Positions 54,121 to 63,841 of a DNA stretch of 64,000 nucleotides are shown piece after piece. The translations under genes were made by a program, and so were the position numbers. The stretch's first letter is position 1. Every line of letters begins with the position of its first letter. The notes beneath the pieces were generated by a model, which was not told where the DNA came from, made no database searches, and saw only the letters and a program-made list of their open reading frames with translations. Source of the DNA: Chelatococcus sambhunathii (GTDB lineage: Bacteria; Pseudomonadota; Alphaproteobacteria; Rhizobiales; Methylopilaceae); assembly GCA_031316315.1 (NCBI GenBank), contig JADBEO010000012.1, positions 41,474 to 105,473 on the forward strand, given 5' to 3'.

Positions 54121-54993
54121 ATGGCTTCGCGCACAGTCAGGTTGATCCAAGCCGCCGCGCTCGCGGCCTCGCTCGGCGCGCTCGCGACGGCCCCGGCCGT
54201 CGCGCAGGACGCGGCCCAGCCGAACTCGGACAAAACCTTCGAGAGCTTCAAGTCCGACGCCTTCGGCGACAAGGCGATCCAGCCTGGCGCCGACTTCATC
54301 AAGATGGACGCGCCCTATCGCGCGGAGGACGCCGCGGTCGTTCCCATCGACGTCAGCGTGGCGCTGCCGCAGGGCGACGACCGCACGATCTCGAAGGTTA
54401 CGCTGATCGTCGACGAGAACCCCTCCCCGGTCGCCGCGACCTTCGCGCTCGGGCAGCCGCGCAAGGAGTTCGCGATCTCGACCCGGCTGCGCGTCAACGC
54501 CTATTCGACCGTGCGCGCGGTGGTAGAGACCAGCGACGGCAAGCTCGCGATGAACGGCAGGTTCGTAAAGGCGAGCGGCGGCTGCTCGGCGCCTGCTCTG
54601 AAGGATCAGGACGAAGCGATCAACCGGATCGGCCAGACGCGCTTCCGCAACGTCGCCGCGCAGGCCTCGGACACGCCGGCGCCCGAAGCGCAGGCGAGCA
54701 AGTTCGACCGCGCGCAGTTGATGATCCGGCACCCGAACTATTCGGGGCTGCAGATGGACCAGATCAAGCGCACCTATATCCCGGCGTGGTTCGTGAACCA
54801 CATCGAGGTGAAGCAGGGCGACGAGACGGTGTTCACCATGGACGGCGGCATCTCGCTCAGCGAGGACCCGATGATCCAGTTCAGCTACAACAAGAAGCCC
54901 GGCGCCAAGCTCGCCATGACCGGCACGGACACGCAGGGTAAGGCGTTTTCTGCCGATCTCCAGGAGAGCGCCGCCAAGGCCGACAACCTCTAA
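54121..54993 (+). CDS. Quinoprotein dehydrogenase-associated SoxYZ-like carrier protein
   Basis: 290-aa exported fusion of a SoxY-like and a SoxZ-like domain. Signal peptide AAALAASLGALATAPAVAQ, then SoxY-like text VPIDVSVALPQGDDRTISKVTLIVDENPSPVAATFAL and the carrier loop KASGGCSAPAL with Cys155, then SoxZ-like HPNYSGLQMDQIKRTYIPAWFVNHIEV and MDGGISLSEDPMIQFSY. In sulfur oxidation the SoxY cysteine holds sulfur intermediates; this family is found with PQQ-dependent alcohol dehydrogenases and its role is not established. ATG 54121 follows GGGAGAACGACA. A strong terminator follows. It faces the minus-strand exported genes and the two-component system. Confidence 0.92.
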   Translation: MASRTVRLIQAAALAASLGALATAPAVAQDAAQPNSDKTFESFKSDAFGDKAIQPGADFIKMDAPYRAEDAAVVPIDVSVALPQGDDRTISKVTLIVDENPSPVAATFALGQPRKEFAISTRLRVNAYSTVRAVVETSDGKLAMNGRFVKASGGCSAPALKDQDEAINRIGQTRFRNVAAQASDTPAPEAQASKFDRAQLMIRHPNYSGLQMDQIKRTYIPAWFVNHIEVKQGDETVFTMDGGISLSEDPMIQFSYNKKPGAKLAMTGTDTQGKAFSADLQESAAKADNL

Positions 54994-55017
54994 GGACGAT
55001 CGGCAGGCTCAAAAGAG

Positions 55018-55046
55018 AAAGGCCGGTCTCGCGACCGGCCTTTTTT
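55018..55046. terminator. Bidirectional terminator after the SoxYZ-like gene
   Basis: Stem AAAGGCCGGTC/GACCGGCCTTT with TCGC loop, T6 run to 55046 for the plus strand and an A-rich left flank that gives TTTCTCTTTT on the minus strand for the gene ending at 55071. Confidence 0.93.
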
Positions 55047-55070
55047 GCTGGGATCGCGCGGTTGCCGGCC

Positions 55071-55442
55071 TCAATAGAAGCACTTGATCTCGGCTTCGGC
55101 CTGGGCGCGGCGCAAGTTCGAAACCTTGTCCTTCAAATCGCCGCTGCTGCGGAACAGCTCGGACGACTGACCGGCGATCTTGTTCATGCGGAGAACCGTC
55201 TCGGCCTCCTCGTACTCGTTGTACGGAAGCAGCGTCGCGATGGTGTCGATGGAGCAGGAGCACTTCTCCAGCGACTCGCGGGTCTGGCCGTTCGCAGCCA
55301 TGCAGCCGAACACATAGTCGGCGCGTTCGGCCGTCGGATAGTCCGAGCCGATCGTCTGGGCGCGCGCAGGCGCCGCGGCGATCGCCGCCCCGAACGAGGC
55401 GGCGAGCGCGAGCGCGGTCCTGCTTCGCCGCGCAAACCTCAC
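55071..55442 (-). CDS. Small exported cysteine protein of the PQQ-linked cluster
   Basis: 123-aa product with signal peptide (ALALAASFGAAIAAAPARA). The mature part reads YVFGCMAANGQTRESLEKCSCSIDTIATLLPYNEYEEAETVLRMNKIAGQ and ends with a Cys-Phe-Tyr. Four cysteines, C, CSC and C-terminal C, are placed for disulfides or metal binding. The family is unnamed to me. GTG 55442 overlaps the upstream stop as GTGA. Neighbour of the SoxYZ-like gene, so a periplasmic redox role is likely but inferred. Confidence 0.82.
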   Translation of the reverse strand: MRFARRSRTALALAASFGAAIAAAPARAQTIGSDYPTAERADYVFGCMAANGQTRESLEKCSCSIDTIATLLPYNEYEEAETVLRMNKIAGQSSELFRSSGDLKDKVSNLRRAQAEAEIKCFY

Positions 55443-56119
55443 TTCGTGGCCTCCGCCTTGCTCTCGGAAGCGACCGTCAGCTCTTCGGTGAGCAGCGGCG
55501 CGCCGTCCGCCTTGGGCGTAACGGTCTTGAGCGCATAAAGGCCGCCCGGCACGGCGTCGCAAAAGATGAGTTCGTAGCTGCGCTCGGCGTATTGCCCGAG
55601 CTTGCCCTTGTTGGCCTCGTCGTTCTGGAACGGCTTGACCGTGACCTTCCACCCATCGACCGTCTTGCCGCCGAAATCGACCTTGGTCGGCTCGGCCGGG
55701 GTGTCCGCCGCGATCGCCTGGCGCAGGCGGTTGCGGAAATAGAACGGGCTGCCGCCGAGCGACTTGTTCATCTCCTTAACGTCCTGCTCGAGCACGGCGA
55801 CGATCACCGGGTTGCCGCTCTTCGACATGTTCGGGAGATTGATCGCCCGCGCGCCGCTGAACAGATCGACCGTCACCGAGTCTTCGGCGCCGCTCGGACC
55901 GACCTTTACGCTCACCACGTCCTCGAAGGAGGGATCGAGCTTAGGGTCCTCGGCCTTCCTGACGAACTTGTAGGTGATGACGCTGCCGTTCTCGAGCTTG
56001 GAGAAATGCGGCGCGTAGAACACGAGATCGACGGAGGCCGGCGCGGCGGCTGCCGCGGACGAGAATATAACGGCGGCGCAGAGAGCCACCGCGCTCCGGC
56101 GTGGAAGAATGAACGACAT
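55439..56119 (-). CDS. Exported protein of unknown function in the PQQ-linked cluster
   Basis: 226-aa protein: signal peptide (SAVALCAAVIFSSAAAAAPA), then LVFYAPHFSKLENGSVITYKFVRKAEDPKLDPSFEDVVSVKV, FRNRLRQAIAADTP and YELIFCDAVPGGLYALKTVTPKADG. Looks like a beta-rich periplasmic protein with one cysteine. I know no function. It is coupled by overlap to the 123-aa gene and lies behind the response regulator by 166 bases. ATG 56119. Confidence 0.85.
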   Translation of the reverse strand: MSFILPRRSAVALCAAVIFSSAAAAAPASVDLVFYAPHFSKLENGSVITYKFVRKAEDPKLDPSFEDVVSVKVGPSGAEDSVTVDLFSGARAINLPNMSKSGNPVIVAVLEQDVKEMNKSLGGSPFYFRNRLRQAIAADTPAEPTKVDFGGKTVDGWKVTVKPFQNDEANKGKLGQYAERSYELIFCDAVPGGLYALKTVTPKADGAPLLTEELTVASESKAEATK

Positions 56120-56285
56120 CTGGTACGCCTTCCCTCACGTTTCTCTGGCGCTTGCGTCGGATCGCGCAGGAAAGCGTCGCCGCGCAGGCCTTTGTCTTGT
56201 GCGCCCATTATGGACCGCCGGCCGGGCGCCGCAAAGACCGCCGGGCGCGGCGGCGGGCCGCAATCCGTCTATGTCCCGCGCGGTC

Positions 56286-56969
56286 TCAGGCGGGCTGGTA
56301 CATGAACCCCCTGCCCCGGACAGTCACGATCAGGCGTCCGCCGTCGGGCGTCGCCTCTCCGAGCTTGTGCCTGAGATAGCCGATATAGACGTCGACGACG
56401 TTCAGCGACGCGCCGCCATGCCCAGCCCAGAGCGCGGAGAAGATGTCGGCCCGGCTGAGCGGCTCGCCGGCGCGGCGCATTAGCAGCGCCAGCAGATCGA
56501 CCTCGCGCTCCGTCAGACGGGTGGTTCCGGTCTCCGTGGAGACCGTGCGGGTCTCGAGGTCCAGATCGAGCGGCGGGACGACGAGGTGGCGGGGGTCGCC
56601 CTCGCTGTTCTCCCGCTTGAGCTCCTGCACCCGGACGCGCGCCAGCAGCTCCTCGAAATTGAACGGCTTGACGATGTAATCGTCCGCGCCGGCCATCAGT
56701 CCTTCGGTGCGCTCCGCCACCGAAGACCGAGCCGAGAGCATGATGATCGGCGCGGTTTGCCCGGAGGCCCTCAGCGCCTTGCAGACCTCGATGCCGGAGC
56801 GTCCCGGCAGCATGACGTCGAGGATGATCGCGCAGATCGACCGCCCGGTCGCGACCGCGAGCGCCTGCTCGCCGTCCCCGACGAGCTCGACCTCGTAGTC
56901 CTCGGCGACAAAGCCGCGGCGCAGAACGGATCCGATGTCGGCGTCGTCTTCGACGATGAGGATTGTCAT
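56286..56969 (-). CDS. OmpR-family response regulator
   Basis: 227-aa regulator. Receiver: MTILIVEDDADIG with Asp51 in LDVMLPGRSG as phosphorylation site and KPFNFEELLARV; C-terminal winged helix: LTEREVDLLALLMRRAGEPLSRADIFSALWAGHGGASLNVVDVYIGYLRHKLGE. ATG 56969 overlaps the kinase stop as ATGA, so kinase and regulator are coupled. The target genes are probably the exported genes around it, but this is inference. No binding sites could be identified. Confidence 0.95.
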   Translation of the reverse strand: MTILIVEDDADIGSVLRRGFVAEDYEVELVGDGEQALAVATGRSICAIILDVMLPGRSGIEVCKALRASGQTAPIIMLSARSSVAERTEGLMAGADDYIVKPFNFEELLARVRVQELKRENSEGDPRHLVVPPLDLDLETRTVSTETGTTRLTEREVDLLALLMRRAGEPLSRADIFSALWAGHGGASLNVVDVYIGYLRHKLGEATPDGGRLIVTVRGRGFMYQPA

Positions 56970-58624
56970 TGGCCGGTTCCGGTGGCGAGGCGCGGGGTCA
57001 GCAGGGGCAGAGCGATGGTGACGGTGGTTCCGGACTTGACGCCTGGGGCGGCGACGCGGCTCGCGATCGAGATCGAGCCGCCGTGGCGCTCGACGATCCA
57101 TCGGGCGAGCGACAGGCCGATGCCGAAGCCGGACCCCTCCTTCTCGCTGACGCCGCGATAGAAGCGCTCGAACACATGCGGAAGGTCCACGGCCGGGATG
57201 CCCTCGCCCTGGTCCGCGACGGTGACGACCGCACGGCCCCGCCGATCGACCGCCAGATCGAGGCGGACTTCTCCGCCCGCGCTCGAATGGCGCACGGCGT
57301 TCGCGATCAGCCCCTCGATGACCTGGCGCAACCATTCATGATCGGCCTCGACCAGAATGTCCTCAGGCATGTCGCCCGCGACGAGCGTCAGGCCGCGCGA
57401 TCTCGCCGCCGCCAGAACGCCTTCGCAGGCCTCCTCGACAAGGCCTGCAAGGCCGATCGGCTCCAGCTCGAGATCGAGCTGCCCGCTCTCGGAGCGCGCG
57501 ACGCGGAGCAGATCCTCGACGCGGCGGTGGAGCCGCTTCGCCCGGGCGCGGATCGTCGCGAGAGCTCCGACAAGATCACCATGCTCCGGCTTGCCGCGCA
57601 GCGTGACGTCGACCTCGCCGAGGATGACGGTCAGCGGCGTCCTGAGCTCGTGGCTCACGTCCGTGAAGAAGCGGCGGCGCGCCCTGTCGATATCGGACAG
57701 GCGCTCGTTGGCGGCGCGAAGCTCGGCGGTCCTTGCGTCGACGATCTCCTGAAGGCTGGACTGCGCGGCGAGCAGACGGCGCTCGCGCCTGGCGAGGCTG
57801 ATGGCCATGCGGTTGAACCGCCTGGTCAACAGGCCCAACTCGTCATGCCCTCCCGCCGCGAGGCGAATATCCGTTCGTCCACGCGTAATATCCGCCGCCG
57901 CCCCCGCGACCTCGGACATCCGCTTCAGCAGCGGCATGGCGATCCAGCGATAAAGCAGAAACGCCAACATCGCCGCGGCCGCGATGGCGAGGGTCGCCAG
58001 CGGAGCGAACCGCGAGCGGAGCTTGGCCATCTCCGCCTCGGCCTCGCGGGCGGCGATGCGCTCCGCCCCGATCGCCTGTCCGAGCGCAGGTCCGAAGCTA
58101 CCGGCGAAGTAGTCGAGAGACGCCCGCACCTTGTCCTCGGCCTGCTGCTGCGCCGCTTCGCCGCCGTTGCGGCCGTTGCGGATGGCGAGCATCACCTCCC
58201 GGTCCAGCACCTCGAAATGCGCCTTCATGAAAGCGAGCGCTCGCCCGCGGGAGGATTCGATCGCCTGTCCCCGCGCCAGGTCCAGGCGCGCGACGTCCGC
58301 GGCGACGTCCTGGCGGAAGCGCTCCAGCGCTTCCTGAATGCCCTTGCGCGGCAGCGAGAGCCGGTCGGTCTGAAGTTCGTGCGACTCCGTGGTCTGAAGC
58401 GCGGCGAGGGCGTAGTCGCCGATGCGGCTCGACGCCGTCGAGAGATCTTCCAGACGGCGCTGGGCCGACGACAGCTCGGCGACGTTATGGTTGGTGACGG
58501 ACAGCGCCCAGGCGAAAACGAGGGCGGCGGCGACCGTCGTGACCACGACCGCGGCGACCAGCACCGCCAGTCTGATCCGCAGCGACCGCAACGGGTTGCG
58601 CAGCATGGCGCCTGCCCTCGTCAT
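56966..58624 (-). CDS. Sensor histidine kinase with HAMP domain
   Basis: 552-aa membrane kinase. Transmembrane helices near 20-42 and 207-227 flank a periplasmic sensor of about 160 residues (mostly helical, four-helix-bundle like). HAMP (IAMPLLKRMSEVAGAAADITRGR), then a coiled coil, the phosphoacceptor H325 in DVSHELRTPLTVILGE, and the ATPase with NAVRHSSAGGEVRL, DQGEGIP and GFGIGLSLARWIVERHGG. ATG 58624; M7 at 58606 is an alternative. It shares an operon with the response regulator. Confidence 0.94.
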   Translation of the reverse strand: MTRAGAMLRNPLRSLRIRLAVLVAAVVVTTVAAALVFAWALSVTNHNVAELSSAQRRLEDLSTASSRIGDYALAALQTTESHELQTDRLSLPRKGIQEALERFRQDVAADVARLDLARGQAIESSRGRALAFMKAHFEVLDREVMLAIRNGRNGGEAAQQQAEDKVRASLDYFAGSFGPALGQAIGAERIAAREAEAEMAKLRSRFAPLATLAIAAAAMLAFLLYRWIAMPLLKRMSEVAGAAADITRGRTDIRLAAGGHDELGLLTRRFNRMAISLARRERRLLAAQSSLQEIVDARTAELRAANERLSDIDRARRRFFTDVSHELRTPLTVILGEVDVTLRGKPEHGDLVGALATIRARAKRLHRRVEDLLRVARSESGQLDLELEPIGLAGLVEEACEGVLAAARSRGLTLVAGDMPEDILVEADHEWLRQVIEGLIANAVRHSSAGGEVRLDLAVDRRGRAVVTVADQGEGIPAVDLPHVFERFYRGVSEKEGSGFGIGLSLARWIVERHGGSISIASRVAAPGVKSGTTVTIALPLLTPRLATGTGQ

Positions 58625-58659
58625 CCCCGCGCCGTCTCACAGAGTCCGGCGGCGCGTCG

Positions 58660-58920
58660 TCACCGGCCGAGCGCCTTCTTGGCGTCGGCGACCGCGTCGA
58701 GGCACTCGTCATACTCCTTTTCGCCCTTCTCGCGCTTGGCGACCTTGAGGGCCTTCTTCAGCGCCTCGGCCGCGGCCTTGGGGTGTTCCTTCGCGACCTC
58801 GGCGGAGATCATCTCGATGCCGGCGTCGCAGTCGGCGGCGGCGTCGGCGAATGCGGGCGCCGAGACGGACAGCGCCGCGGCGATCGTCAATGCCCGGAAG
58901 GAGTGCTGGAGCGCGCTCAT
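58660..58920 (-). CDS. Small exported helical protein
   Basis: 86-aa product with signal peptide (FRALTIAAALSVSAPAFADA) and a charged helical mature part (ADCDAGIEMISAEVAKEHPKAAAEALKKALKVAKREKGEKEYDECLDAVADAKKAL) with two cysteines that could form one disulfide. Family unknown. Start overlaps the cupredoxin-like gene stop as ATGA, and the kinase gene follows 35 bases on, so all may be one operon. Confidence 0.82.
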   Translation of the reverse strand: MSALQHSFRALTIAAALSVSAPAFADAAADCDAGIEMISAEVAKEHPKAAAEALKKALKVAKREKGEKEYDECLDAVADAKKALGR

Positions 58921-59351
58921 TTTGCGGTGATGGTCCCGGCCATGCCACGGGACTCGAGCCCGTCGATCCACCATTTGAACGACCCCGGCCGAATCACGAC
59001 GAACTCGATGCGGATCGCACCCTCGTCGTCCCATTCGAGATGATGCGGTGAGCCCGGGCCGTGGATCTCCAAATGATTGATCACGATCTGGTTGATCCAG
59101 ATATTGCGGAAGAACTCCGGCGCGAAGAATTTGTATTCCTTGCCGCCCTTTGAGACGATGTCGAGCTGATAGGCCTTACCGGACTCTAGCTCGTAGTCCT
59201 TCTGGCTGACTGCGTAGTCGTCGCCATTGTCTCCGCCAAGCACGAGATCGGGCAGGGTCTGGCGGCCCTTGGCGAGATCGACCGCGCCTGCGGGCGTCGC
59301 GACAATACAAGCGACGGCGAGCGCCAGCGGCCGGGCCAAGCGTCGAAGCAT
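58917..59351 (-). CDS. Cupredoxin-like exported protein
   Basis: 144-aa protein with signal peptide (LALAVACIVATPAGA). The mature part resembles plastocyanin-type beta barrels: YELESGKAYQLDIVSKGGKEYKFFAPEFFRNIW, HLEIHGPGSPHHLEWDDEGAIRIEFVVIRPGSFKWWIDGLESRGMAGTITAK. The end GMAGTI copies the copper-site Met loop, but no Cys ligand is present; the His cluster HGPGSPHH may bind metal. Assignment is moderate. CAGGGAGATTGCAG precedes ATG 59351. It heads the minus-strand set with the two-component system. Confidence 0.78.
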   Translation of the reverse strand: MLRRLARPLALAVACIVATPAGAVDLAKGRQTLPDLVLGGDNGDDYAVSQKDYELESGKAYQLDIVSKGGKEYKFFAPEFFRNIWINQIVINHLEIHGPGSPHHLEWDDEGAIRIEFVVIRPGSFKWWIDGLESRGMAGTITAK

Positions 59352-59684: not shown

Positions 59685-59900
59685 TTAATTGAAGTTGCGG
59701 GTGAGCCGTGAGGCGCCAGACCCGTCGCATTTCCAGCGAGAGACCTGATAGTCAGGGTGATCGCCGGTCCATTCCGCGATGATCGGCACCGCCCCCATCA
59801 TGCAGGCGCGGGAATCGGTCATTTCATATGAGACGAGCACACGCTCCTCGCGGCACGAGTTAGGCGAGGAGATAAGGCACACAAGCAGCACGAGATCCAT
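59685..59900 (-). CDS. Small conserved-type exported protein
   Basis: 71-aa product with a short hydrophobic start (MDLVLLVCLISSPNSC) and a domain CREERVLVSYEMTDSRACMMGAVPIIAEWTGDHPDYQVSRWKC. Three or four cysteines and the pattern C...A-C-M-M-G-A...W..D-H-P-x-Y...R-W-x-C are typical of a short family seen in Rhizobiales, of unknown function. AAGGAG is six bases before ATG 59900. Start and domain together support a real gene. Confidence 0.78.
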   Translation of the reverse strand: MDLVLLVCLISSPNSCREERVLVSYEMTDSRACMMGAVPIIAEWTGDHPDYQVSRWKCDGSGASRLTRNFN

Positions 59901-60296: not shown

Positions 60297-60809
60297 ATGG
60301 CGAAGATCACCAAGACCCTCATCGGCGAGTCGCTCGTCGGCGACGGCAACGAAGTCGCTCACATCGACCTCATCATCGGCCCGCGCGGCTCGACGGCTGA
60401 GTCCGCGTTCGTCAACGCTCTCACCAACAACAAGGACGGCTTCACCTCGCTGCTCGCGGTCGTGACCCCGAACCTGCTCGCGAAGCCGAACACCATCCTG
60501 TTCAACAAGGTCACCATCAAGGACGCCCGTCAGGCCGTCCAGATGTTCGGCCCGGCGCAGTACGGCGTCGCCAAGGCGGTCGTCGACAGCGTCGCCGACG
60601 GCACGATCCCCGAGGACGAAGCCGACGACCTGTTCATCTCGGTCGGCGTGTTCATTCACTGGGAAGCGGCCGACGACGCCAAGATCCAGCAGTACAACTA
60701 CGAGGCCACCAAGGAAGCCCTCAAGCGCGCCGTCAACGGCGAGCCGAAGGCCCGGGACGTGGTCGCGCAGTCCGGCACCGCGAAGCACCCCTTCGCCGCC
60801 AACGCCTAG
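60297..60809 (+). CDS. fae: Formaldehyde-activating enzyme
   Basis: 170-aa enzyme that condenses formaldehyde with tetrahydromethanopterin, the first step of formaldehyde oxidation in methylotrophs. The family text is clear: [16 protein letters not shown] with the catalytic His22, [39 protein letters not shown] and [37 protein letters not shown], then KHPFAANA at the end. GGGAGG is ten bases upstream of ATG 60297. It is monocistronic with a terminator. It is the strongest evidence that the organism uses C1 compounds. Confidence 0.98.
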
Positions 60810-60978: not shown

Positions 60979-61722
60979 TCAGGCCCGCGCGACGGCCAGC
61001 GCCGGACCCGCCGAGGTCAGCGAGCCGCGCACGCGTTCAACCTCGCCGGCGTTACGTCGCGCCTCCGGCGACAGCTCGATGCGGACGTCGTGTTCGATCC
61101 GCACGGGCGGGCCGCCGAGAACCACGACCCTGTCAGCGAGCCGAACCGCCTCCCGGCTGTCGTGGGTCACGAACAGGATTGTGGCGGGATGGCGCTGCAC
61201 CAGGTTCGCCAGCAGGTCGCGCAACCGGTCCGCCGTCTGCTCATCCAGCGATACGAACGGCTCGTCCATGAGGAGCAGATCGGGTTGCAGCGCGAAGGCG
61301 CGCGCCAGCGCGACCCGGCGCTGCATGCCGAGCGAGAGGCGCTCGGGATAGACGTCATGGGCGTCGGCGAGTCCCATCTCGGCGAGAACCGCCTTGGCGC
61401 GCTCGGCGCTCGCAGAACCCGGCTCCAGGGGAAGCGTCACGTTCTGAAGAACCGTCCGCCACGGGAGCAGGCGCGGGCTCTGAAACGCGTAGCCGATGCG
61501 CGGCGCCGCCTTGCTCTCGAACGTGACGCGTCCCTTGAAGTCGCGGTCGACGCCCGCGACGATGTTGAGCAGCGTCGTCTTGCCGAGGCCGGACGGTCCG
61601 AGCAGCGCGACGAAGCTCTTGTCCGCGACCTCGAGGCGGAAGTCGTGATAGAGGCCGCGCGCAGGGCCGCCGGCCACCGCCGGAAACACCTTTTCCGCGA
61701 TGTCGATGCGAACGGCCGTCAT
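60979..61722 (-). CDS. ABC transporter ATP-binding protein (taurine/nitrate type)
   Basis: 247-aa ATPase: Walker A GPSGLGKTT, YAFQSPRLLPWRTV, signature LSLGMQRRVALARAF, Walker B LLLMDEPFVSLDE and TILFVTHDSREAVRLADRV. It resembles SsuB/TauB, with the signature read LSLGM rather than LSGGM. ATG 61722 overlaps the permease stop as ATGA. The importer encoded by 60979-63539 probably takes up a small organic or inorganic compound; what it is cannot be told. Confidence 0.95.
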   Translation of the reverse strand: MTAVRIDIAEKVFPAVAGGPARGLYHDFRLEVADKSFVALLGPSGLGKTTLLNIVAGVDRDFKGRVTFESKAAPRIGYAFQSPRLLPWRTVLQNVTLPLEPGSASAERAKAVLAEMGLADAHDVYPERLSLGMQRRVALARAFALQPDLLLMDEPFVSLDEQTADRLRDLLANLVQRHPATILFVTHDSREAVRLADRVVVLGGPPVRIEHDVRIELSPEARRNAGEVERVRGSLTSAGPALAVARA

Positions 61723-62471
61723 CGCCGCCACCGATTGGCCGCCCGCTCCCAGGGCTGGATCAGGCCGAGCTCGATCGCCTGCACGATCAGGCCGAAAGCG
61801 AGCGCATAGGCGAGGATGGTCGCGACGTCCCAGAGCTGGAAGGCGGTCTGGAGTTCGAAGCCGACGCCGTTCGGCCGGCCGAGCAGTTCCACCACCAGCA
61901 CGATCTTCCACACGAGCGCCAAGCCGGACCGCGCGGCCGCCGCGAAATACGGCGCGAGCTGCGGCAGGATGACGTGGCGGAGCGTCTTCCACCGGCTGAA
62001 GCCGTAGATCCGCGCCATCTCCGCGAGGTCGCGGCTAAGCGCGGCGGCCCCTTCCCTGAGCGTGACGGCGACGTTCGGGATCTTGTTGATCGCGACGGCG
62101 GCGACAGCCGCGGATTCGACCAGCCCGAACCACACATAGCACAGCATGATAATGACGAGCGCCGGCAGGTTCAGGAACAGCACGATCCACGGACTGATCA
62201 GCCGGTCAGCCGTCGGCGACATGCCAAGGAAGATTCCGAGCGCTGAGCCGATGATCATGGCGAGCAGGAAGCTCGCCGCCACGCGCGCGAGCGTCACTGC
62301 GAGGTTGGAGAACAGCGCGCCGGCCTTGGCCGAGGCTATCAAGGCGTCGAGCACCAGCGGCGGCGTCGGCAGCAGCTTCGGATCACCGTAATAAAGCGCC
62401 GCCAGCCACCAGACAGCCACGAAGACGCCGAGCGAAAGCGCCCACCATGCCAGTCGCGAAACCGCCGTCAC
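61719..62471 (-). CDS. ABC transporter permease (taurine/nitrate type)
   Basis: 250-aa inner-membrane permease with about six helices and the BPD_transp_1 EAA-like loop (REGAAALSRDLAEMARIYGFSRWKTLRHVILPQL). Similar to SsuC/TauC. ATG 62471 lies 12 bases behind the binding-protein gene. Second gene of a three-gene importer operon. Confidence 0.95.
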   Translation of the reverse strand: MTAVSRLAWWALSLGVFVAVWWLAALYYGDPKLLPTPPLVLDALIASAKAGALFSNLAVTLARVAASFLLAMIIGSALGIFLGMSPTADRLISPWIVLFLNLPALVIIMLCYVWFGLVESAAVAAVAINKIPNVAVTLREGAAALSRDLAEMARIYGFSRWKTLRHVILPQLAPYFAAAARSGLALVWKIVLVVELLGRPNGVGFELQTAFQLWDVATILAYALAFGLIVQAIELGLIQPWERAANRWRR

Positions 62472-62483
62472 CGCGTGGACGCC

Positions 62484-63539
62484 TCAGACCTTCGAAGACC
62501 AGAACAGCCCAGGATCGAATCGCGGATTCGGACCGACGAACTCCTGGCCGCCGAGCTCAGACAGCAGCCCGTAGAGCTTCTGCGACGAGGCGAGATCGGC
62601 CTCGCCCCACGGATCCGGGATTCCGGCGCGAAAATAGTCCTTCAGACGCGCGAACTCCGCGTCGGACTGGACCTGCATAGACGGCCTCAGCCGCTGCCAC
62701 GCCTCGTCGGACTTTCTCAGCGTCTCGTTCGCAGCCTTGACGCCCGCGAAGAACGCGTCGAGCTGCGCGCCCTTCCTATCGGCCAGCTGGTCGCGCCAGA
62801 CGAAGCCCACGAGCGGCGGCGGCGGCTCGAGCCCGAGGCGCTTCATCACCTCCGAGACGTCGACGAGGCGCCGGTAGCCTTCCGCATCGAGACGCGCCGC
62901 GAAGTTCCAGAAGGTCAGCACGGCGTCGATGCGGCCGAGCCTCAGCTGCTCGTTCAGCAGAGGCGGCGCGCCGAACACCGGCTCCACCAAGGCTGCGATG
63001 TCGCCGTCGACCTCCTTGTGCGCGTAGGCGCGGAACAGGAGCCAGCTCTTGTCGATCGGCCCGCCGGCGACGCCGACCTTCTTGCCCTTGAGATCTGCGA
63101 GCTTCTCGATCTTCGAGTTCTTGCCGACCATGAGCGCGCCGAGCGCGGAGGAATAGGGCGCAAAGCGGAACGGCTCGCCCTCGATCCGGCGGCGCATCGC
63201 CCAGGGCCAGTCGCTGACGGCGAGATCGCACTGCCCGGCCTGGAGCGCGACCGTCAGGGCCTGCGTCGAGGCGAGCTCGAGGCGCTCGAACGGCGCCGCC
63301 TGCCCGGCCTTCTCGCTCTCGGCCTTGATGGTGTCGAGCAGCCAATTGACGGTGCCGAACTTCAGCGTCGAGATCTTCAGGGGCTCGGCTGCGCGGGAAA
63401 AGCCGGCCGACGCGCCGAACGCGATCGCCGCGCCGACGGCGAGGACGCCGCGCCGGCTGAAGGCGAGCGGCGACGAAACCGCATCCGAACCGGCTCTGGC
63501 ACCTTCGGCTCGCGGCGTCGTTCCGGACGACCAACGCAT
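62484..63539 (-). CDS. ABC transporter substrate-binding protein (taurine/nitrate type)
   Basis: 351-aa periplasmic binding protein: twin-Arg-containing leader (SRRGVLAVGAAIAFGASAGF), PLKISTLKFGTVNWLLDTIKAES, DLAVSDWPWAMRRR, LADLKGKKVGVAGGPIDKSWLLF, and FWNFAARLDAEGY. Resembles SsuA/TauA/NrtA-type proteins; the pocket residues do not identify the ligand. GGGAGA is before ATG 63539. First gene of the operon, next to fae and divergent from the truncated gene at the right edge, so a C1-related ligand is possible but unproven. Confidence 0.93.
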   Translation of the reverse strand: MRWSSGTTPRAEGARAGSDAVSSPLAFSRRGVLAVGAAIAFGASAGFSRAAEPLKISTLKFGTVNWLLDTIKAESEKAGQAAPFERLELASTQALTVALQAGQCDLAVSDWPWAMRRRIEGEPFRFAPYSSALGALMVGKNSKIEKLADLKGKKVGVAGGPIDKSWLLFRAYAHKEVDGDIAALVEPVFGAPPLLNEQLRLGRIDAVLTFWNFAARLDAEGYRRLVDVSEVMKRLGLEPPPPLVGFVWRDQLADRKGAQLDAFFAGVKAANETLRKSDEAWQRLRPSMQVQSDAEFARLKDYFRAGIPDPWGEADLASSQKLYGLLSELGGQEFVGPNPRFDPGLFWSSKV

Positions 63540-63841
63540 CCCTGTCTCCCTCGCGTCGCGTTCTTGTCTTTTTCGCTTACGCAGCGACCGCGATTTCGGT
63601 CCACCACGCACATTCGGGAACAATTTGCAATCGCTCACGCCACGCTCAAGCAATCATTACAACTTATTAATTTCTTATGCATTGCTTTCGGTCTTCAGCC
63701 GTCGTGAGTTGCGCGCCAGAATAGGCGGGAAGAAGTCCTTGGCCGAGCGGCGCTTCATGAGCAGATCGTCGGACTCGTCTCGCCCGCCGCCGCGCCTTAG
63801 ATAGCGCCGCCGAATCCAATGATCAGGGCCGCGTGACGACG
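63540..63841. other. Divergent region between the ABC operon and the right-edge gene
   Basis: About 300 bases. The middle (63620-63690) is AT-rich (ATTACAACTTATTAATTTCTTATGCA), and probably holds one or both promoters. An open minus-strand frame 63675-63893 has Arg-rich content and is not supported as a gene. Confidence 0.5.

Follow-up and report, generated by a model that had tools for sequence, protein, structure and literature searches.

In this study we describe a seven-gene cluster of Chelatococcus sambhunathii (positions 54121-59351 of the window, that is, of the whole 64,000-nucleotide stretch of DNA that was analysed) in which probable relatives of lutC and lutD, genes of a lanthanide uptake system, are joined to a kinase/regulator pair that is likely MxbD-MxbM, the published lanthanide switch. 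This joining is the new part of the work, most of the other parts having published counterparts, and the cluster stands as a genuine, well-conserved feature. Three sets that have been studied separately (lut, mxbDM and orf6/orf7) are brought together here, and the exported proteins P7 and P6, which come from uptake-cluster relatives coupled to mxbD, are two concrete candidates for the input of MxbD. If they do act in sensing, the locus would contain the input that the lanthanide switch still lacks. On the minus strand the genes run P7-P6-kinase-regulator-P3-P2, with P1 on the plus strand. Starts overlap as ATGA at P7/P6 and at kinase/regulator and as GTGA at P3/P2; 53 bases separate P6 from the kinase gene, and 166 the regulator gene from P3. 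All seven open reading frames and their overlaps were found at the positions given by an earlier reading of the bare sequence (the original prediction). The signal peptides of P1, P2, P3, P6 and P7 were assigned by eye, without a predictor, and no Pfam or NCBIfam model matched P2, P3, P6 or P7 above its cut-off.

The kinase (56966-58606, minus strand; HAMP, HisKA and HATPase_c domains) and the OmpR-type response regulator (56286-56969, minus strand; Response_reg and Trans_reg_C) are likely orthologues of MxbD and MxbM, as judged by synteny and a reciprocal best hit. When 18 genomes reached via P7 loci were searched with the kinase, ten gave a strong match, and in all ten it adjoins a regulator and pqqB. 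The order kinase-regulator-pqqB-C-D-E-P3-P2 is kept in seven of the eight Methylobacterium/Microvirga stretches; the contig of the eighth stops after pqqB. Conversely, the MxbD orthologue of M. aquaticum DSM 16371, a Methylobacterium kinase located at the pqq cluster, found the window kinase as its best hit in the Chelatococcus genome (4.1 Mb in 100 contigs) with 336.4 bits, the next hit reaching 174. Counted from its Met, residues 205-208 of this orthologue read VLLH and residue 254 is Asn. The suppressors 205LLLH and N254S of strain 22A are described as sitting at and in the HAMP domain (PMC7356819); the M. aquaticum protein hence carries residues at the suppressor sites, which supports the MxbD identity, and the window kinase matches it in neighbours and HAMP residues. 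For strains AM1 and 22A, control of mxa and xox by MxbDM in response to lanthanide is reported in the same source (PMC7356819). The AM1 region mxbDM-pqqABC/DE-orf7-orf6 shares with the window the order and strand of kinase, regulator, P3 and P2, as do the Methylobacterium-group genomes. It differs in that the window has no pqqBCDE between regulator and P3, bears P7-P6 upstream of mxbD and carries a SoxYZ-like gene convergent beside P2. We take mxbM and mxbD to be genes 1752 and 1753 of AM1.

Upstream of the kinase lie P7 (58917-59351, minus strand), an exported protein devoid of Cys, and P6 (58660-58920, minus strand), a small, exported, helical and acidic protein with two Cys. Their relatives likely hold the positions of lutC and lutD in AM1: a search of 59 genomes returned 30 Methylobacterium-group loci, and in all 30 the P7 and P6 relatives are the two genes between the LutB- and LutE-type genes. 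The AM1 cluster is given as lutABCDEFG (PMC7391723), and the Lut and Ped clusters (the latter being pedA1A2BC of Pseudomonas putida) are homologous. LutD is reported to bind lanthanides, the published binding being for LutD only. In contrast to the lut and ped clusters, the window pair stands apart from a transporter cassette, at the head of the mxbDM genes, for which reason we term P7 and P6 relatives and not parts of the lut cluster; in the Lut cassette of the same genome, on contig C27, no P7 was found. P7 has a cupredoxin fold in its predicted model. The columns of the type 1 copper Cys and of one His ligand were placed from what we take to be the cupredoxin motif, and both ligands are gone from all 55 aligned sequences, in which the mature part never contains a Cys (0/55), position 129 is Ile or Val in all and position 132 is Leu in 54 and Met in one. 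P7 differs in this respect from cupredoxins such as AcoP and the Cupredoxin_1 family. Glu95, His97, Glu106 and Asp108 are invariant throughout the same alignment; that of the P6 family comprises 39 rows. A search of PDB sequences with the P7 profile gave weak matches alone, mostly to copper nitrite reductase, and a literature search met no publication tying a cupredoxin to lanthanide and methanol dehydrogenase, its matches being, by their titles, on other matters.

Scanning named genomes with the P7 alignment confirmed 116 places, of which the 80 best were taken as loci. Among named sequences, P3 and P7 are closest to those of Methylopila, Hansschlegelia and Chenggangzhangella; NCBI assigns these genera to Methylopilaceae, and the host, likely a relative of methanol-using bacteria, would belong to the same family. 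In all ten Methylopilaceae loci (L002-L011) the order Fae, P7, P6, kinase, regulator is kept, with P3-P2 next in nine and P1 present in six. All seven genes are present in eight Ancylobacter-type loci (L012, L013, L015, L017, L020, L021, L023 and L040; six from Ancylobacter, one from a named Bosea sp. and one from a Xanthobacteraceae MAG), and in each of the eight pqqB, C, D and E lie inside the cluster, between regulator and P3. Of 79 loci, 55 have P7 inside a PedA1A2BC-type (Lut/Ped) cassette, 18 have it directly before the kinase gene and six elsewhere; P6 follows it in 15/55, 18/18 and 5/6 of these, respectively. Since 71 of the 79 loci contain a pqq, xoxF or Ped/Lut gene and pqqBCDE sit within every Ancylobacter-type cluster, the original prediction of a periplasmic set that is regulated and linked to PQQ-dependent C1 oxidation is supported, and its grouping withstood the comparison of neighbourhoods in which homologues of the exported proteins were sought beside SoxYZ-like or PQQ dehydrogenase genes elsewhere. 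Among 249 genomes of the order, P7 was found in 64, a strong MxbD match in 26 and both in 21, so that P7 occurs in 21/26 genomes with MxbD vs 43/223 others (Fisher test, 6e-10; this and the other co-occurrence tests ignore kinship). P7 matches above 190 bits occur in 20 genomes, 18 of which have MxbD.

P3 (55439-56119, minus strand) and P2 (55071-55442, minus strand, GTG start) are likely the counterparts of orf7 (META1p1747) and orf6 (META1p1746) of AM1, where pqqB, pqqCD, pqqE, orf7 and orf6 are listed as genes 1750 to 1746 (PMC7391723). P3/P2 relatives stand directly behind pqqE in seven Methylobacterium-group stretches and in the eight Ancylobacter-type loci; directly ahead of P3/P2 in the window there is no pqq gene. 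According to the growth data in PMC7391723, AM1 requires orf6 and orf7 for methanol growth only with La3+, where the orf6 mutant grew at 0.03 per hour and the orf7 mutant at 0.08 per hour after a lag of 9 h, compared with 0.16 per hour. For P3 the predicted model shows what may be a LolA/RseB-like half-barrel. P2 is an exported protein whose four Cys (47, 61, 63 and 121) are invariant across 21 aligned rows. PDB sequence searches with the P3 and P2 profiles gave no useful match. Among 120 listed relatives of P2, one source labels several as ‘lysyl-tRNA synthetase class II’, apparently in error for exported proteins of 120 residues. The five products that the original prediction had left without a known function are thus partly accounted for: the regulatory pair would be MxbDM, P2 and P3 match orf6 and orf7, and the relatives of P6 and P7 sit at the lutD and lutC positions.

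P1 (54121-54993, plus strand) had been called a SoxYZ-like carrier of the quinoprotein-dehydrogenase-associated type, and this call was borne out: with 261.6 bits it clears the TIGR04557 cut-off of 140 and is the sole match in the genome. Its arm Cys, within GGCSAP, is conserved throughout the alignment (49/49 rows, a few being one gene retrieved in duplicate). A terminator-like stem-loop (55018-55043; 11-pair stem, by pattern match alone) separates P1 from the convergent P2. A true Sox thiosulfate system was ruled out, as P1 stays below the cut-offs of thiosulfate-oxidising SoxY (TIGR04488, 87.9 vs 125 bits) and SoxZ (TIGR04490, 57.8 vs 76 bits). Elsewhere in the genome, on contig C27, the gene for a SoxH-like hydrolase (TIGR04559, 366.9 bits, cut-off 280) immediately precedes xoxF, which is followed by XoxJ, a CXXCW protein and then the Lut cassette on the opposite strand. 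P1 and the hydrolase, both above their cut-offs, resemble other TIGR04557 carriers with SoxH-like hydrolases such as PP_2677/PP_2678, except that P1 stands on another contig from the hydrolase, beside P2-P3. The xoxF and xoxJ alignments of C27 are some 270 bases apart, and tblastn found no XoxG relative in this stretch (L160). A second PQQ dehydrogenase on contig C13, presumably MxaF, has a weak XoxJ/MxaJ-type neighbour. Two pqqC genes score above cut-off, one on this same contig (C13:51466-52164) and one at C100:67300-68007. Over the class genomes having P3, P2 is its neighbour in 13/13 and the SoxYZ-like carrier is present in 12/13.

How might these parts work together? We propose that the locus is one periplasmic unit, in which P7 and P6 tell MxbD the lanthanide state and P3, P2 and the carrier support XoxF, a reading whose chances we hold to be about even. 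P7 and P6 would bind or pass Ln3+ near the periplasmic domain of MxbD; in the presence of Ln3+ the MxbDM signal would change, and mxa would go down and xox up. P3 with its predicted half-barrel, P2 with its four Cys and the SoxYZ-like arm together with SoxH-like and rhodanese-like partners might provide folding, disulfide or thiol care for XoxF and PQQ. Gene neighbourhood and the published binding of LutD suggest the lanthanide-reporting step, published La-only phenotypes and co-occurrence the care of XoxF. The stricter claim that LutC, LutD and MxbD form one lanthanide sensor, in which a copper-less cupredoxin and an acidic helical protein from the uptake system give the kinase its Ln3+ status, appears rather unlikely to us.

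Several points weigh against the proposed unit. A contact of LutC/LutD with MxbD is a proposal from gene context, and the likeness of P7/P6 to LutC/LutD and of P3/P2 to orf7/orf6 is one of gene position, as seen in Methylobacterium-group genomes. Five of the 26 MxbD genomes have no P7, and weak P7 matches (below 130 bits) make up 44 of the 64. Of the 21 genomes that have both, nine have P7 within 500 bases of mxbD, and these nine, the window's own among them, all belong to the window's genus; in the other 12 it lies 7 to 24 kb away (four) or far off or on another contig (eight). As five kinase candidates were scored per genome, MxbD might have been missed in some. In strain RH AL1 a gene called lutD is set apart from lutAEF. 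In AM1, deletion of lutC caused a small growth defect and deletion of lutD no significant one. The ligand of MxbD is given as not known in the passages on it in PMC7356819 and PMC5784242, which suggest XoxF, and published models prefer XoxF itself as the cue read by MxbD or MxcQ.

The last two points also speak for the leading alternative, in which the genes are what we take them to be and P7-P6 are passive neighbours for lanthanide handling or transport, co-transcribed with mxbDM, with MxbD sensing another signal such as XoxF; this is quite possible, and we lean only slightly against it. It would agree with the many loci (55/79) in which P7 remains within the Lut cassette. Further, six of the ten Methylopilaceae loci have the cassette at a distance of only about 5 kb, in a single methylotrophy island, another point against our proposal, because of which the move of P7-P6 may be passive. 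Passive neighbours are harder to reconcile with an ATGA-overlapping pair placed directly upstream of mxbD in two groups, the ten Methylopilaceae and the eight Ancylobacter-type loci. Nor do they fit the cassettes themselves well: a Lut cassette is visible beside 14 of these 18 mxbD-linked P7 genes, and 12 of the 14 contain no P7, although in three of those 12 a gap of 438 to 538 bases is long enough to conceal a decayed copy. The other two contain a divergent second copy (L015:2180-2563 and L023:1997-2368). We had considered these as recent duplicates and dropped the idea, since a quick tree of 90 sequences (midpoint root) places them well away from the copies linked to mxbD. The latter fail to group as a single clade there, which may reflect two placements, one placement with a reversal, or a poorly resolved short alignment.

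Possible as well, if doubtful, is a thiol-relay or PQQ-protection unit, in which the SoxYZ-like, SoxH-like and rhodanese-like proteins, P2 and P3 would shield the vicinal disulfide of XoxF or PQQ from sulfur species, the kinase being incidental. Such a role is in line with a 2026 review, which suggests that PP_2666, PP_2677 and PP_2678 act in forming disulfides, stabilising cofactors or protecting PQQ (PMC12997753), and with the PQQ dehydrogenase found within 5 kb of P2 in nine of the 17 genomes having P2. However, it leaves the presence of P7-P6 and mxbDM in one minus-strand set unexplained, and the same review gives minimal phenotypes for the P. putida homologues, in tests that were rare-earth-deficient (PMC12997753).

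The model of the original prediction, a periplasmic chain of electron or sulfur carriers that is regulated and serves PQQ-dependent C1 oxidation, we regard as improbable. The arm Cys kept in every row of the SoxYZ-like alignment, the SoxH-like and CXXCW genes near xoxF in the same genome and the strong PQQ linkage would suit it, but its electron-carrying part did not survive: by eye the exported proteins contain no CxxCH, and P7 is excluded by the loss of its copper ligands, replaced by Ile/Val and Leu/Met. The true SoxY and SoxZ models also remain under cut-off. A chance neighbourhood of unrelated genes, which might be argued from the absence of the SoxYZ-like gene in four and of P3-P2 in one of the ten Methylopilaceae loci, is ruled out for practical purposes by the co-occurrence and the gene order conserved across several families, with P3 and P2 adjacent in every P3 genome.

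The surroundings of the cluster showed some further features. The conserved divergent neighbour Fae, the formaldehyde-activating enzyme, lies at 60297-60809 on the plus strand (TIGR03126, 250.5 bits, cut-off 118.05). Between P7 and Fae we noted a small reading frame of 71 amino acids (59685-59900, minus strand) with several Cys, as seen by eye. Its cluster has 28 members from 28 sources, the window included, which in the loci printed lie near Fae, P7 or an SsuA-like transporter; its Ancylobacter relative gave no NCBIfam match at E 1e-5. Another family (c26) lies near xoxF or an SsuA-like transporter (L012:4870-5556, L166:8031-8423, L169:16322-16771 and L170:9185-9622), and its L012 member likewise had no NCBIfam match at E 1e-5. 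Beside Fae, an ABC importer set with ATPase, permease and SsuA-like binding protein occupies 60979-63653 on the minus strand; in the loci printed, related sets lie close to fae (Ancylobacter) or to xoxF (rhizobia).

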